Shown here: positions 6,711 to 13,772 of the stretch, one piece after another
Position numbering within the stretch: position 1 is the stretch's first letter
Layout: the number at the start of each line of letters is the position of its first letter
Origin: a virus
IMG/VR virus record: IMGVR_UViG_3300032053_000074
Coordinates: 1-60,830 of that record
Length of the DNA stretch: 60,830 nucleotides
Strand: one strand, 5' to 3'
The notes under the pieces: model-generated
Told to the model about the DNA's origin: nothing
The model's input: the letters and a program-made list of their open reading frames with translations, nothing else
Databases searched by the model: none
Program-made: the position numbers and the translations under genes

Positions 6711-9700
6711 TTATTTTGTATTGTGGATAATGTTACTTTCATCCATTAAGGATTTACTTGAATTTTCCGAAATAAGTTCCTGTGTTACATCAGTCTGTGA
6801 TTTCTTTAGAAATACGGATAAATTACTAATTAAATCCTTATTCTCCTTCATAGACACAGTTGATAACCTGTGTTCTTTTAGACTGAACGGCGAGTCATTC
6901 TCGAAATTATGATCGAAATTACTCTTGCGTTTACCTTCACTATTCTTATTTGGAGAAGATAATCTTTCCTTAGAACCTAATGGATCTTCTCCAAATGGAT
7001 GCTGTGCTCTGGCATCATGTTCGCCACTTTGGTCTCGTTTTTGCTTAATTTCCTTAACCAAATCTTCTGGTTCTTCTTTATTTTTAGTTTCTCCAGGTGG
7101 AGTTTCTTCGTCACCCTTCCCATCCTCACCCTCGCCCTCACCGCCCTCACCCTCACCGCCCTCACCCTCACCAGGTTTACCTTCAAGGTCTTCTATATCA
7201 CCCAATCCACCACCACCACCACCACCACCACCACCCAATCCACCACCCAATCCACCACCACCACCAGAATCAGATTTTTCAGATCCGCCACTCTTTCCTA
7301 TGCCAATTTTATTAAACGGCTTAGCTGGATCATCACCATCTTCCTCAATTTTACTGAATCTATATTTCTGTTTCGAATCTTCCACTACCTGATCTTTAAC
7401 TTCTTTAATATCATCATCAGACATGTGGAATATATTTTTATAAACCCATTCATAAGAGAAGAATTTATTCTCGATCATGTCGGTTGATACAGAAACTTTA
7501 TCAGACCAAATCTCAAGTTTTTCCTTTTCAAAAATTGTACTTGGATTAGTTAATTCCAGTTTGAAATCAACTAGACTTTCGTCACGATATCCTTGAGCAT
7601 ATAGATGAACAATTCCGATTTTCTCTAGTTCATTTGCAATAATCCTCTGAATTCTCTGAATAGTACGAGCGAACCTGACATCTTCCGACGCAAGTGTAGC
7701 TTTTCCGGAAATACCTTCTTCATACCCAAGAAATGCTTTTGGGATTTTTAAGGCAGACATGAGTTTATTACGTAGATATTCGATATCTTCGGTACCCGTC
7801 CATTCCATACCACCAAGGGTATCGATTTTTGTGCCACTATCACTACCACGAACTGGAATGTAATAGTCTTCAACCATGTTCTGGAGATTAAAACGAAGAT
7901 TATATTCCCCACTCTGTTCATCCATATAAGGGACTTTCTTCATTTTATCCATCATCTTCTGCATGTAATTATCAACTTCGGCAGGAGGGATATTTCCAAT
8001 ATCAGTATAAAATATACGCTTTTCAGGTGCTCTCATTATACGATGGATTAACATAGCATCTTCCATCAATGATAATTGCTTCCAAACACGTCTTGCCCCT
8101 TCCAACATAGATTTTCCATATGGCATGAAATTACTATCGGACATCAATCGGAAATGTGCCATCTCGTAGTTTTCTAATACTTCTGCTTGTGCCGTATCAG
8201 TTGGACGCAATTGAAATTTAACATAACGTTTATTATTTGGATCAGCATTCTCAATACGCTCAACATTGTAGGAAGAAATTGGTTCAACCATGTAAACCCC
8301 ATATTCAGGAGTAATATACAATTTTAGATAAAAATCACCGTATTTACAATTTTTCACAAATACACCACTATCTTTGGTTATATTTCCATCCAAATCTTTT
8401 CCACACATCGCAAAATTATGTCTATCATGTTCCCCATTTGGACCAACAACAGTCATACAATAAACGTCGGAAGATTCGTTTATAATTTCAACGGTTTTAA
8501 CTTTATGATTTGGTAGAATACCGTTCTTTCTAAGTTCCTTCATTTTTTTACTGGCAGATTCTCGTCTATCAGAAGTCCATCCACTCTTCATATTTTCACA
8601 TGCACGTTCTCTTCGAACTGGGTCTTTCCACATTTCTGTTTTTAATTTAGATCGTATTTTATCCGATCTAAGATATTTGTCAATACTTCTTTTTCTTTTC
8701 TCTATAATTTCTGGAGTATGTAATATACGTTTACAATGATCTGCGTGTAGTCGTCGATGATCAAAAAACTCCATCGGAATTAGATTTGTTGGAGAATTGT
8801 CATATTTATTGAAATTTTTATGATGTAAAATTCTATTAATGCTATCAGTTTTAATTCCATATGACTCAGCCACGTTACGATGTGTAAAATCATATTTATC
8901 AAGTCCAGGATTATATATCATCTCATACTTATTCATCCCTCCTTTTTCAGGACTCAATTTTCTATAGAACGGCATTAGACTATCATTTTCTTTAAGATCC
9001 TCTGCACATCGTTCAATTCCATTTCGTAATATAAATGGATGTTCGGGTGAAGTTTCTACAAATGAATTGTCATCGAATGTTATTTTTACTATTTTGTTCG
9101 CTGTATAATTTTTATCACACCAAACAACCTTACCTGGTACAATTTGATTTGTTCCATCTTGAACCGAATATACCCAAACTCCCTCCCCGTTCTTTATTTT
9201 ATTGGATAAATCATCTATTCTTATATTTTCCCCCGATAATAATGGAATATAAGAATCATATTTTACTGGCATGTTTCTAGTCCATGACCACATGTTAAAT
9301 TGTACATTTAAGATATCATTGTATAAATTTTCCAATATTTCTTTTACATTATTATTGCTAGAATGCACCGTCAGCATTTTTCCCATTTCATTATAAGTGA
9401 GGCATTCATCCGCATAAATGTCGAGAGCACTACTCAAAATTGGATCCATATCCATTGTATTTTTTACGATACAACTATCCGTAGCAAAATTTGCAAACTT
9501 CTCAACTGTAACATCATATACATCTATTTGACCAATAGATTCAATAGAAACTATTGTATGATTCAAGGTGGATTCAACTTCTTTTTTAAATGATTTCCAA
9601 TTTGTAAATTTTTCGGTTAATCTATTTTGAAGGACAGAGTAATCGCATCCAATATCTTTTATAAGATCCCAAGAAATTAATTTTCCATTTTTCTTATAAT

Positions 9701-10784
9701 GTTCTATGGCTTTTAACTTTAATACTTCAATCGTCAAATCATTACGGTATTTTGGATTTTTCTTTCCATTTTGATCTCTATTAACAAACACTTTTTTTAG
9801 AGTTTCTGATCTATTCTCATTAGATTCATCGGAATGTATTTTACCATAAAACGGATTATTTTTTCCCTTACGTTCTCCATTCCATTTATGAAATAATCTA
9901 TTTTTATATCCGTTGGATGACTGTATCTTATCAAGTGTGTTTTGTTTGTTTTCTGGCGACCATAATTTATCAGAGATAATTTTACAGTGATATGCTTTAT
10001 GGTCTGATTCTGTCATTATTTGGAGATTATTTGGCAAATTATTATTCTTATCGAAATTCTTATGATGAACCACTTCATTATATTTCAATGGTCTATCGAA
10101 TTGTTCTGCCACAATTTTATGTTCGGATTGCCATCCCTTACTGAAATTATAAATATGTCTATAACCATGACCATAAAAATCTTTTTGATAAAACGGCATC
10201 ACCGATTCCCCCACCTTCAAATCGACAATTTTCTTATATTCTCCATTTCTCATTAAAAACGGGTGTTTTAGGCTTCCAATAACATATTGTCCGTTATCAA
10301 AAGTCACCTTATAACCCATTCGGGTTCCTTTTTTCTTACGAGGATGAAATGCCTTTCCTAATTTTATTGATTTTGACACATGATCATATGAGAATACCCA
10401 AAATCTCTCTTGAGGTTGGTCTTTGTATTTTTCAGAAAGTTCTCTTATAGTTGGACGATTTCCATCCGGCAATGGAATAATGGTATCTGGTCCAACGCAA
10501 TCATAATCACGAAACAAATCCATTCTTGCAGCTTGATAAGATAATGCAAAATCACGAGAATATGCATTATAAGCAGTTGATCTAATTCGATTGAATCTAT
10601 CACGTAACGAATTTCGGTCAGTGGCAAACATGACATTATTAGTGTCCTTTATCTTAATCTGTTTACCACCAACGTTTCTAACAATTACTTCCGTGGAAAA
10701 TAGACTCTTTAATCTTGAAAATAAAGATTGTTTTTTAACATCTATAATCTCGTCTTCAAATGGTTGTAATGATGGTGTTGGCAT
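6711..10784 (-). CDS. gp20: Portal protein (T4 gp20-like) interrupted by two inteins
   Basis: The host protein forms the dodecameric head vertex through which DNA is packaged. Extein blocks are clear: residues 1-95 end in MDLFRDYD, 443-505 begin TMDMDPILSSALDIYADE, and 813 onward begins CKYGDFYLKL and includes AFLGYEEGISGKA, all gp20-type. Removing residues 96-442 and 506-812 gives a 703-residue portal that reads through smoothly. The C-terminal 200 residues are unusual, with a poly-Gly block followed by a Glu/Gly repeat and then a charged tail. The gene precedes the head operon and follows the terminase, the T4 order. Both inteins must splice for a working portal. Confidence 0.9.
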   Translation of the reverse strand: MPTPSLQPFEDEIIDVKKQSLFSRLKSLFSTEVIVRNVGGKQIKIKDTNNVMFATDRNSLRDRFNRIRSTAYNAYSRDFALSYQAARMDLFRDYDCVGPDTIIPLPDGNRPTIRELSEKYKDQPQERFWVFSYDHVSKSIKLGKAFHPRKKKGTRMGYKVTFDNGQYVIGSLKHPFLMRNGEYKKIVDLKVGESVMPFYQKDFYGHGYRHIYNFSKGWQSEHKIVAEQFDRPLKYNEVVHHKNFDKNNNLPNNLQIMTESDHKAYHCKIISDKLWSPENKQNTLDKIQSSNGYKNRLFHKWNGERKGKNNPFYGKIHSDESNENRSETLKKVFVNRDQNGKKNPKYRNDLTIEVLKLKAIEHYKKNGKLISWDLIKDIGCDYSVLQNRLTEKFTNWKSFKKEVESTLNHTIVSIESIGQIDVYDVTVEKFANFATDSCIVKNTMDMDPILSSALDIYADECLTYNEMGKMLTVHSSNNNVKEILENLYNDILNVQFNMWSWTRNMPVKYDSYIPLLSGENIRIDDLSNKIKNGEGVWVYSVQDGTNQIVPGKVVWCDKNYTANKIVKITFDDNSFVETSPEHPFILRNGIERCAEDLKENDSLMPFYRKLSPEKGGMNKYEMIYNPGLDKYDFTHRNVAESYGIKTDSINRILHHKNFNKYDNSPTNLIPMEFFDHRRLHADHCKRILHTPEIIEKRKRSIDKYLRSDKIRSKLKTEMWKDPVRRERACENMKSGWTSDRRESASKKMKELRKNGILPNHKVKTVEIINESSDVYCMTVVGPNGEHDRHNFAMCGKDLDGNITKDSGVFVKNCKYGDFYLKLYITPEYGVYMVEPISSYNVERIENADPNNKRYVKFQLRPTDTAQAEVLENYEMAHFRLMSDSNFMPYGKSMLEGARRVWKQLSLMEDAMLIHRIMRAPEKRIFYTDIGNIPPAEVDNYMQKMMDKMKKVPYMDEQSGEYNLRFNLQNMVEDYYIPVRGSDSGTKIDTLGGMEWTGTEDIEYLRNKLMSALKIPKAFLGYEEGISGKATLASEDVRFARTIQRIQRIIANELEKIGIVHLYAQGYRDESLVDFKLELTNPSTIFEKEKLEIWSDKVSVSTDMIENKFFSYEWVYKNIFHMSDDDIKEVKDQVVEDSKQKYRFSKIEEDGDDPAKPFNKIGIGKSGGSEKSDSGGGGGLGGGLGGGGGGGGGGLGDIEDLEGKPGEGEGGEGEGGEGEGEDGKGDEETPPGETKNKEEPEDLVKEIKQKRDQSGEHDARAQHPFGEDPLGSKERLSSPNKNSEGKRKSNFDHNFENDSPFSLKEHRLSTVSMKENKDLISNLSVFLKKSQTDVTQELISENSSKSLMDESNIIHNTK
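8349..9269 (-). mobile_element. Portal intein 2 (Pro1, atypical mechanism, HNH nuclease)
   Basis: The intein covers portal residues 506-812 (307 residues), between RNM and CKYGDFY of the extein. Aligned on intein 1, its first residue is Pro (PVKYDSYIPL) rather than Cys or Ser. Block F reads DVYCMTV, with Cys where intein 1 has Asp. It ends VFVKN before Cys+1. Pro1 with a block F Cys recalls class 3 inteins, but the class 3 Trp and Thr partners are not in place and Cys+1 is more class 2-like. An HNH core (ILHHKNFNKYDNSPTN) is present. Confidence 0.8.
9459..10499 (-). mobile_element. Portal intein 1 (Cys1, HNH nuclease)
   Basis: The intein covers portal residues 96-442 (347 residues). It starts CVGPDTIIPL (Cys1), has a block B-like SLKHPF, block F DVYDVTVEKF, and ends CIVKN before Thr+1. 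The penultimate residue is Lys where His is usual. The inserted nuclease is HNH type (VVHHKNFDKNNN with a later DHKAYH). A GKNNPFYGK motif resembles the NUMOD3 DNA-binding module. The insertion falls in the conserved RDYD/TMDMDP segment of the portal, a typical choice for a homing element. Confidence 0.85.
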
Positions 10785-10841: not shown

Positions 10842-13772
10842 TTATGATAATAGCCATCTAATATCCTCGGTATTCTGCTTACCGAATCCTTGACGACCAG
10901 TGTTCATTTCCCATGATTTCTGACCATCTCGGACTTGACCTTGTTTATAAACTGGTACATCTTCAGTTTTGCTCTTGTTTATTTGACTGATTCCAGCACG
11001 AGTTAAATCAATTCCTTCTTGTCTCAATCTTAATGCAGTATCCCGCACCCACAGTCCAATTGCTAATGACATTATTAAATCGTCATTATATGGTTCCATC
11101 GCCTGTGCCTTACCCGCCTTCCATATAAATGTACTTAACTCCATAAGCGTTCTTTTCGAAAATATATCAACTGCGGTGTCCCTAAAATACATTTCCAGAT
11201 TATTTATTATAAGTGGACGAGTCTTCATATTGGTACTAAACCCAGGAACCAATTTCTTTTCTTCCGAATCATACCGATTCGATAATTGTCGCTGAACATC
11301 AACATACTTCAGATCTACTGAACTAAAAAATGTATTCTTGTATTCTCGATCCAAAATTGCTTGAAGAGTCGCCCAACCTACGTTTTCCCGTTCTACAATA
11401 AGAATTGCATTATTATATTCCGTCGCCAAGGCTACTAAGAAATTTCCATAATCTTTAGTTCCCAATGATCCTTTATATTCTGCAACTTGAGTTGGAGTAG
11501 TGCAAGTAATGTCTAATACATGACATGCTGAGAAGTCCATAGCATCTCCTCTGGCAACGTCAGCTGAAACAATATATGAATGAGCATAATCTGGATATTG
11601 CCATACCCATAATCCTTTATCCGCTCCTCTAATATCTACAGGATCTTTCTGTTTATTTTTCTTATAAAATTCTACGATATTTAAATCAATAACGTTATCA
11701 CCAGATGCTAGAAAGTTACAGTCATATTCTTGAGAAGCTTTCTTTGCACTTCCTTGCTTTTCACCCTCAACTCGCCTCCATTCTTCATCACGTTCAGGAT
11801 GTAATTGCCACGGCAAAGAAATAGGATGAAATCCATTTTTACCAATTGTTCCATCATTATTTTCTTCCGCCCCCATCCACATTTGATGAAACCAATTACC
11901 AACTCCTCTAGGCGTAGATAATATGATTGCATTACCACCAGTATTATGGTTGACATATCCTTCACAAACAAACCGCTCCACCAACGGAACTTTCAAATCA
12001 TAACTGAAATCGTTGCAGAGGTATCGAATTGAGATTACCTCGTCAAAAAACTCGGAAGTATCTTTCTCATATTGTTTTTTCAACAACTTGTAATTTTCCG
12101 ATGGATGTAATTTGTTTGAAACATCCAACAAGGATTCGACCGATGTAATACTCAGCCCCTTTCCATTGTACCACAAATATCTATCATAAAAACAGTTGTG
12201 TTTCTTTGAAAAATCTCTAATAGACATTCCACTTTCCAAGATGAGATTCTTTACGAGTGTTTTGTCAGGAAAAATTCGTTTAATGGATTTTCTTGATAAT
12301 TTCCGCCATCCTTCTTGTTTTCTTTTCAATCTAAATCCAACGGTAGAATAAAAAGAATGGGCGTCAAATCCACCAATAAACAACTCAAATCCATAAAATG
12401 TTCGTGTTTTATCTTTGATAACGGTAGATTTTGTTGACTTCCACGTTACATCTCGTATGTAACAATTGATTCCCATATTCAACAATATTGCTCTTACGTT
12501 AGAAAGTAGTTCGTAAGAAACAGAGGTAAGTTTAATTCCCTTCGCCCCCAATGAGCACCCGTCCCCATCAAACAATCCTTGGAGAAATGCTACTTGCTCT
12601 TCTTGTGATGCCGACAAAATTTGAGTAGGAACTCGCTTAGTATGTGCCGTTCCTTCACATCCTATCCATTTCAGAAGTTCTTGAACCCACACAGATTGAA
12701 TGTAATAATGTCGTTCATCACTATTTTTGAATCCAATACTTTTTAACCAATTGATTATTTCCTCATCTGTATTGGTAATACCAACGGTTCCTCTTGAAAA
12801 ATGACCTTCTGCTGTCCACAGTCCGGCTAAATAGCAAGTGTCAGTTGAAGATATGTCATACTTTTTACTATCAACCCGAATATCCGGAACGAATTTAGAA
12901 AAATCTATAGATTTTCCGAATACATTTTGATTATATTTACACAAAACAAAGTCTTTATTTTCTTCTATATTATTTACAGATTTCCAGCCGTTTTTAGTCA
13001 TTAGAGGGTGGTCTTTTGTCGCTATCAATCTCCCGCCACTCTTAAACTGAACTTCGTAGAGATCAGATTTTTCCGACATATAAAAAGAAGACGCATAAAC
13101 TAATTCATCTCCGTCATGAACTCTCAATGTTATATCATTAAATCCAATTTTCGTTTGATTATTTATAAGATGTTCCAATCTCATCAGTCCATTTTCAGTT
13201 AGAATCAGTTGAGATTTATCCAGACACGATAATGTCGGTTGTGCCGAAGTCCACAATTCTGCGGCATCATCGATCAATGCTGCTTCATCGATTATCAACA
13301 ATGAAAGTGCTTGTCCAACACCTGATTTCTTAGTAGTAGAAGCAGCCTTAATCTGAGATCCATTTGCAAATTTAAGTGATAATCTATTATCTTCAAGACA
13401 TTTTACCTTTAACCATGATGGCAAATTCTCATTGGCAAATCTGACCTTTGAAATAATATCTTTTGCATCATCTTGTCTCAATGATATAATAAGGATATTC
13501 TTGTCTTTATTGAATATCATAGTCCACAATGAAAATGCGGATACTAGGGTAGAAATACCCATCTGACGGGATTTTAAAATAATATTAAACTTATAATCAT
13601 GGAATGATTTAAGCGTTTCTTCTTGAAATTGAAATAGGTCGAAATTAATTGTTCCTCTTACAGGATGTTGAATTTTTACATAATGCTTCATGAAATATAC
13701 AGGGGAATCTGCACACTTCGAGTATTGTTGCTTAACTATGTCCTGATAACTTAATTCGGGTTTATCAGACAT
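10842..13772 (-). CDS. gp17: Large terminase subunit (T4 gp17-like) with an intein
   Basis: This is the packaging motor ATPase and headful nuclease. The ATPase half shows a deviant Walker A (KSRQMGIST, residues 67-75) and Walker B LLIIDEA (158-164). After the intein the chain resumes TGGNAIILSTPRG, the coupling motif. The nuclease half has SADVARGD, an ILIVEREN strand and a final DDLIMSLAI, the acidic residues of the RNase H fold. Without the intein it is 548 residues, close to the family norm. The start overlaps the preceding gene by 8 bp, and the portal gene follows, as in T4. Confidence 0.92.
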   Translation of the reverse strand: MSDKPELSYQDIVKQQYSKCADSPVYFMKHYVKIQHPVRGTINFDLFQFQEETLKSFHDYKFNIILKSRQMGISTLVSAFSLWTMIFNKDKNILIISLRQDDAKDIISKVRFANENLPSWLKVKCLEDNRLSLKFANGSQIKAASTTKKSGVGQALSLLIIDEAALIDDAAELWTSAQPTLSCLDKSQLILTENGLMRLEHLINNQTKIGFNDITLRVHDGDELVYASSFYMSEKSDLYEVQFKSGGRLIATKDHPLMTKNGWKSVNNIEENKDFVLCKYNQNVFGKSIDFSKFVPDIRVDSKKYDISSTDTCYLAGLWTAEGHFSRGTVGITNTDEEIINWLKSIGFKNSDERHYYIQSVWVQELLKWIGCEGTAHTKRVPTQILSASQEEQVAFLQGLFDGDGCSLGAKGIKLTSVSYELLSNVRAILLNMGINCYIRDVTWKSTKSTVIKDKTRTFYGFELFIGGFDAHSFYSTVGFRLKRKQEGWRKLSRKSIKRIFPDKTLVKNLILESGMSIRDFSKKHNCFYDRYLWYNGKGLSITSVESLLDVSNKLHPSENYKLLKKQYEKDTSEFFDEVISIRYLCNDFSYDLKVPLVERFVCEGYVNHNTGGNAIILSTPRGVGNWFHQMWMGAEENNDGTIGKNGFHPISLPWQLHPERDEEWRRVEGEKQGSAKKASQEYDCNFLASGDNVIDLNIVEFYKKNKQKDPVDIRGADKGLWVWQYPDYAHSYIVSADVARGDAMDFSACHVLDITCTTPTQVAEYKGSLGTKDYGNFLVALATEYNNAILIVERENVGWATLQAILDREYKNTFFSSVDLKYVDVQRQLSNRYDSEEKKLVPGFSTNMKTRPLIINNLEMYFRDTAVDIFSKRTLMELSTFIWKAGKAQAMEPYNDDLIMSLAIGLWVRDTALRLRQEGIDLTRAGISQINKSKTEDVPVYKQGQVRDGQKSWEMNTGRQGFGKQNTEDIRWLLS
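11943..13226 (-). mobile_element. Terminase intein (Cys1, LAGLIDADG nuclease)
   Basis: The intein spans residues 183-610 (428 residues) between AQPTLS and TGGNAIIL. It begins CLDKSQLIL, has block B ATKDHPLM and ends GYVNHN before Thr+1, a standard class 1 layout. Two dodecapeptide motifs, YLAGLWTAEG and FLQGLFDGDG, mark a LAGLIDADG homing nuclease, unlike the HNH nucleases in the portal. The insertion separates the Walker B side from the coupling motif, so the unspliced protein should be inactive. Confidence 0.9.

Follow-up and report, generated by a model that had tools for sequence, protein, structure and literature searches.

Splicing without a nucleophile at the first intein residue has been treated as one class 2 origin (KlbA) and one origin of the WCT inteins of class 3 (PMC4031507, PMC3196547). 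KlbA orthologues have Ala1, Asp at F:4 and Ser at G:6. Class 2 requires the Asp at F:4 (PMC4031507), and KlbA is its only known case (PMC4031507, PMC3196547). In class 3 the Cys at F:4 attacks the N-junction and then hands the acyl group to the +1 residue (PMC4031507, PMC5222942). Mutants of Thr G:5 can show minimal effect in class 3, whereas mutants of Trp B:12 are impaired (PMC5222942). The AceL NrdHF intein, for which the branch point at Cys F:4 was established by experiment, splices by the class 3 route with Met in place of the Trp (MCT) and without the His residues at C2:13 and C1:6, and without the penultimate His (PMC7891396). The same work gives a working rule for class 3, namely no Cys at position 1 and a Cys at C2:4, which corresponds to F:4 (PMC7891396).

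We analysed the window, i.e. the whole stretch of 60,830 nucleotides from a virus, in which a T4 gp20-like portal gene occupies positions 6711 to 10784 of the minus strand (Portal_T4, E 2.5e-63; phrog_213 portal, E 7.5e-60). All features described below are on the same strand. The T4-like portal precursor has 1357 aa and holds two inteins. Intein 1 (9459-10499) has Cys1, Asp at F:4 and the domains HNH_3 and NUMOD3, and is a distant relative of intein 2. The adjoining terminase large subunit gene carries a LAGLIDADG intein with Cys1 that ends in NHN before a Thr (11943-13226). Intein 2 (307 aa, 8349-9269) translates as a single open frame within the portal gene. Its order in the precursor is RNM, then PVKYDSYIPLLSG at the start of the intein, VVWCDKNYT, ETSPEHPFILRNG, the HNH region and finally DVYCMTVVGPNGEHDRHNFAMCGKDLDGNITKDSGVFVKN, which is followed directly by CKYGDF. 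The first intein residue is Pro1 (codon CCA, 9267-9269). Cys51 lies at 9117-9119, the invariant block B His (His77 at B:10) at 9039-9041 and Phe79, which takes the B:12 place of the class 3 Trp, at 9033-9035. The HNH homing endonuclease region covers intein residues 118-187 (8709-8918) and was matched by phrog_7545 HNH (E 8.5e-9, residues 122-187) and phrog_21964 (E 8.4e-7). With this endonuclease located between blocks B and F, intein 2 is predicted to be a homing intein of the HNH type. In block F we found Cys271 at F:4 (TGT, 8457-8459) and His284 within DRHNF (8418-8420), which is invariant across a 31-row alignment and likely the F:13 His. Val305 occupies G:5, where class 3 has Thr (8355-8357), and is followed by Lys306 (8352-8354) and the terminal Asn307 (8349-8351). 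The first C-extein residue is Cys+1 (8346-8348), which is conserved in empty portals.

Both ends of the intein are fixed by empty sites. In 15 portal ORFs, with about 10 different sequences among them, R[NS][LMT] runs directly into CKYGD, which makes Pro the first and Asn the last residue of the insertion. AlphaFold2 models with native flanks reached a mean pLDDT of 88 for intein 2 and 91 for L052, a relative of 165 aa. When L052 was compared to solved inteins with VIA-align the best Z was 19.8 (8ubs). Its Pro1 (model residue 9) falls on residue 1 of the solved inteins and its Asn (173) on or close to the last residue of Mtu RecA, PI-PfuI, class 3 6bs8 and 6rix. The Intein_splicing domain scores were over the cut-off. 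We thus found the features that define an intein: the HINT fold with blocks A, B, F and G, an in-frame insertion in a conserved protein, a terminal Asn and Cys, Ser or Thr at +1. An earlier note on this DNA had named a redrawn N-terminal boundary with Cys or Ser at position 1 as one result that would refute its reading. We checked for such an end and it is ruled out by the empty sites together with the structural alignment. A phmmer search with intein 2 against the PDB matched no intein; the family profile described below gave weak matches to DnaE, NrdJ and other inteins in the PDB and matched no class 3 chain.

Intein 2 and 69 relatives have Pro at position 1, where class 1 has Cys, Ser or Thr. 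Intein 2 also departs from the KlbA pattern of class 2 (Pro1, Cys F:4 and Lys G:6) and from the strict WCT signature of class 3 (Phe79, Cys271 and Val305). The earlier note had described the same residues, that is Pro1 in place of the N-terminal nucleophile, a Cys in block F, no class 3 Trp or Thr, Cys at +1 and a penultimate Lys, and the codons bear it out on each. Its further claim that this mix fits none of the three standard classes stands for the KlbA pattern and for strict WCT, but is too strong as a statement about all three, because the intein would count as class 3 by the working rule of PMC7891396. The tolerance of changes at Thr G:5 and the example of AceL NrdHF also mean that the loss of the Trp and Thr is compatible with class 3 chemistry. 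The note had further taken Cys+1 as a class 2 sign. We had to drop this point, as Cys+1 is known from class 3 as well, in Bvi IcmO (PMC5222942) and in the Settecandela terminase intein, and as proof of class 2 it also fails on the Ser+1 and Thr+1 members of the Pro1 clade. Residues other than His (Lys, Gly, Ser) are common before the last Asn in phage inteins (PMC5050341).

Intein 2 is one member of a larger family, a pattern that the earlier note did not contain. We scanned IMG/VR with intein 2 and with growing alignments, plus one scan of GTDB, and recovered both ends of 70 distinct Pro1 inteins. Cys at F:4 was found in all 70 and Cys at position 51 in 69, the exception being an Ala in L131. 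Judged by the flanks, the host genes are T4-like portals with three or more insertion sites. Across the 67 inteins that were scored, the sites were CKYGD in 22 cases, the SxDED/CxxQD region in 42 and TGDIDD in three. Neither a penultimate His (G:6) nor a full WCT was observed in any of these 67; the last residue is Asn in 65 and Gln in two, and the +1 residue is Cys in 31, Ser in 29 and Thr in seven. Members of 157-175 aa, which are too short for an endonuclease, retain the splicing residues. One scan was anchored on block F alone, with the N-half within reach for the hits counted, and gave 63 Pro1 motif matches versus two Cys1 matches (repeat contigs included). Pro1 was therefore not imposed by the search. 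In a Tblastn search of 50,697 public phage records the intein matches examined were Cys1, and the GTDB scan returned a single MAG contig with two Pro1 inteins. This contig (L253) is labelled Candidatus Wolfebacteria; it holds both inteins in a phage portal and is probably of phage origin, having been binned together with the MAG. We did not find the family described in the open-access literature.

Several portals showed further particularities. One portal carries two distinct Pro1 inteins (L151 and L241; L034), at a site of the type RYNAL/M followed by S and at the TGDIDD site. In L016/L219 a Pro1 intein apparently ends in Gln rather than Asn (GGIFMFQ, followed by SVDED). Several apparent inteins (four or five) occur in single-frame portal genes of L086, L090 and L195, and the N-halves of these inteins lie at aa 88, 541, 776, 1184 and 1714 of the L086 ORF and at aa 110, 467, 909 and 1467 of the L090 ORF. 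At about aa 727 of L149 (L019) there is a portal intein-like domain without a clear Cys1, the start of which resembles IQ followed by SFRGN.

Closest to the Pro1 inteins are Cys1 portal inteins of the HNH type, three of which the family profile matched over blocks A-B as well as the HNH part (E 6.7e-57). HNH-type class 1 portal inteins (e.g. L183, L195, L214 and L131) share the HNH part, the host genes and partly the sites with the Pro1 family, at a mean identity of 35% and up to 49%. They differ in having Cys1, in the absence of Cys51 (0/39 outer Cys1 inteins) and in a variable F:4, which is Thr in 14, Asp in 13, Cys in nine and Asn in three of the same 39. With nine occurrences next to Cys1, the Cys at F:4 need not be the first nucleophile in those relatives. 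In the later tree, which was built without columns 1, 51 and F:4, 58 Pro1 inteins and three inner Cys1 rows were separated from 33 outer Cys1 rows with a support of 96/92. The inner rows (L158, L287 and L292) group with three Pro1 inteins (six rows, 98/89) and all three keep both Cys51 and Cys F:4. These three and L155, L157 and L160 all lie within the Pro1 clade, occupy the same CKYGD site and combine Cys1 with both of these cysteines, and the Cys1 of L158 is encoded by an identical TGT codon in four contigs. In the earlier tree, where L158 was the sole inner Cys1 row, monophyly of the Pro1 inteins without L158 was weakly rejected (p-AU 0.044). Two changes at position 1 would suffice to explain this distribution, the simplest course being a switch from Cys to Pro at the base of the clade and a reversal to Cys within it. 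The family probably originated from an HNH-type portal intein that swapped its Cys1 for Pro; several Cys1 relatives already have a Cys at F:4.

The family could also descend from class 3 itself, if a WCT lineage had shed the Trp and Thr and gained an HNH endonuclease. Both groups have Cys F:4 and lack a position-1 nucleophile, Trp occurs at B:12 in nine Pro1 members (six of them with Ser at G:5), and in one tree class 3 attaches to the Pro1 side with a support of 97/81. However, this join leads to a zero-length tip via a branch of about 3.3, and it is not significantly favoured (p-AU 0.34 for a place among the Cys1 rows). Eight WCT phage inteins, Baka and relatives, served as class 3 references; their first residue is Ala, Gly or Leu. 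Their mean identity is 16.5% to the Pro1 inteins and 17.1% to the Cys1 relatives, compared to 35% between Pro1 and Cys1 inteins, and the HNH part is common to the latter two. As the branches of class 3 are very long and its attachment point shifts from tree to tree, we did not use its tree position. The class 3 inteins Bethlehem DnaB, Deinococcus Snf2, Msm DnaBi1 and Baka terminase (L260) share with the Pro1 family the lack of Cys, Ser or Thr at position 1, Cys F:4, His B:10, the terminal Asn and a Cys, Ser or Thr at +1. Their own features are Trp B:12, Thr G:5, mostly His G:6, DxxH in block B, a varied first residue and mostly a LAGLIDADG endonuclease, whereas the Pro1 family has Phe or another residue at B:12, Val or Leu at G:5, no His G:6, [A/T]xxH, an invariant Pro1, Cys51, a long block F loop and HNH. 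The similarity, the endonuclease type and the form of block F favour a separate origin. The Pro1 family thus probably arose apart from WCT class 3, and descent from that lineage appears improbable. Among the class 3 matches we also observed an intein of Lactococcus phage AM4 (L266) with Cys1, Cys F:4 and THN before a +1 Thr, a possible intermediate between class 1 and class 3.

The constraint on two positions differs between the sets. In the earlier tree the total lengths were nearly the same (34.1 changes per column for the Pro1 set and 34.0 for the Cys1 set), and we counted no change at F:4 in the Pro1 set versus at least seven in the Cys1 set, and one change at position 51 versus eight. In the later tree the counts were zero and six for F:4 and one and six for position 51. 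One-sided sign tests, which are rough and after the fact, gave p of about 0.008 (0/7) and about 0.02 (1/9). As the Pro1 family has essentially one origin, the association of Pro1 with Cys F:4 represents few independent events. The dN/dS of the splicing blocks was 0.03-0.20 where measurable, i.e. these blocks evolve under what the sequences indicate is purifying selection. For L003 and L004 the intein dS was 0.3-0.4 while the portal dS was saturated, a sign of recent horizontal transfer. The constancy of F:4, the low dN/dS, the transfer and the short members argue for active splicing and for a Cys F:4 that has become indispensable in the Pro1 clade. An insert that has decayed or does not splice and that the portal tolerates, or a cleaving domain of the BIL type, would account for the missing first nucleophile and penultimate His. 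It would have to do so for 70 members with invariant catalytic residues under this selection, for an insertion that splits conserved portal sequence and for 157-175 aa members that keep the splicing residues without having the endonuclease, and we consider it extremely unlikely.

We think it likely that intein 2 is a functional, mobile HNH-type intein which would splice by a class-3-type mechanism through Cys271, without a nucleophile at position 1, and which is probably of separate origin. Cys271 would attack the bond between Met(-1) and Pro1, and the N-extein would be held as a block F thioester on Cys271 with His77 assisting. The acyl group would then move to Cys+1, Asn307 would cyclise and release the intein, and an S-N shift would join RNM to CKYGDF to give a normal portal. 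Cys, Ser and Thr all occur at +1 inside the one Pro1 clade, as class 3 chemistry permits. AceL NrdHF resembles the family in having neither Trp B:12 nor the usual His residues of the C-terminal part (PMC7891396), and differs in its Ala1, the retained Thr G:5, its split form and its location in nrdHF. Against the class-3-type mechanism counts the failure of gp41-1 with an engineered WCT to splice (PMC7664689), which indicates that Cys F:4 alone is insufficient in other scaffolds.

In a class-2-like route Cys+1 would instead attack the Met-Pro1 bond directly, with Cys F:4 assisting as Asp F:4 does in KlbA. Mja KlbA is like intein 2 in having no position-1 nucleophile, Cys+1 and a non-His penultimate residue (PMC4031507); it has Ala1 and the required Asp F:4, whereas the Pro1 family has Cys F:4, invariant within the clade and variable outside it. 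The need for Asp F:4 in a class known from KlbA only (PMC4031507, PMC3196547) and the 29 Ser+1 and seven Thr+1 members in the same clade make this route improbable.

For the class-3-type mechanism through Cys271, Pro1 may itself help, as the junction would be a strained prolyl amide. Pro may have been retained because its amide bond is more readily distorted, or because it is poor at taking the acyl group back. Cys51 aligns with the His after the conserved Trp of a DnaE intein. In DnaE inteins, which are not known to have a penultimate His, this His lies near the C-junction. Cys51 may therefore support the C-terminal step, substituting for the absent penultimate His. It may also pair with Cys271 as a redox switch. 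Msm DnaBi1 requires a second cysteine, Cys48, which on oxidation forms a disulfide with Cys F:4 (PMC6195587). We tried to equate the two cysteines and rejected this: the columns differ, with 26 versus 17 residues before His B:10, so Cys48 is only a possible parallel. A bolder reading, which we regard as rather unlikely, is a fourth mechanistic class independent of class 3. Here Pro1 itself would be catalytic, a prolyl amide that the fold keeps twisted or cis would be cleaved by Cys F:4 with Cys51 as partner and without the WCT machinery, and Pro1 and Cys1 would be switchable on one scaffold.

Going by its sequence, intein 2 is a real and functional-looking member of a large family with Pro1 and Cys F:4, and we infer that this family works like class 3 though it fails the strict class 3 signature. 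With 70 natural sequences it looks like a further origin of nucleophile-less splicing. It raises the question of why Pro is kept at position 1, Cys being the sole alternative seen. The short members (157-175 aa) lend themselves to cloning, and there are natural Cys1 inteins inside the clade. How class-3-type chemistry evolved can be tested directly in this family.
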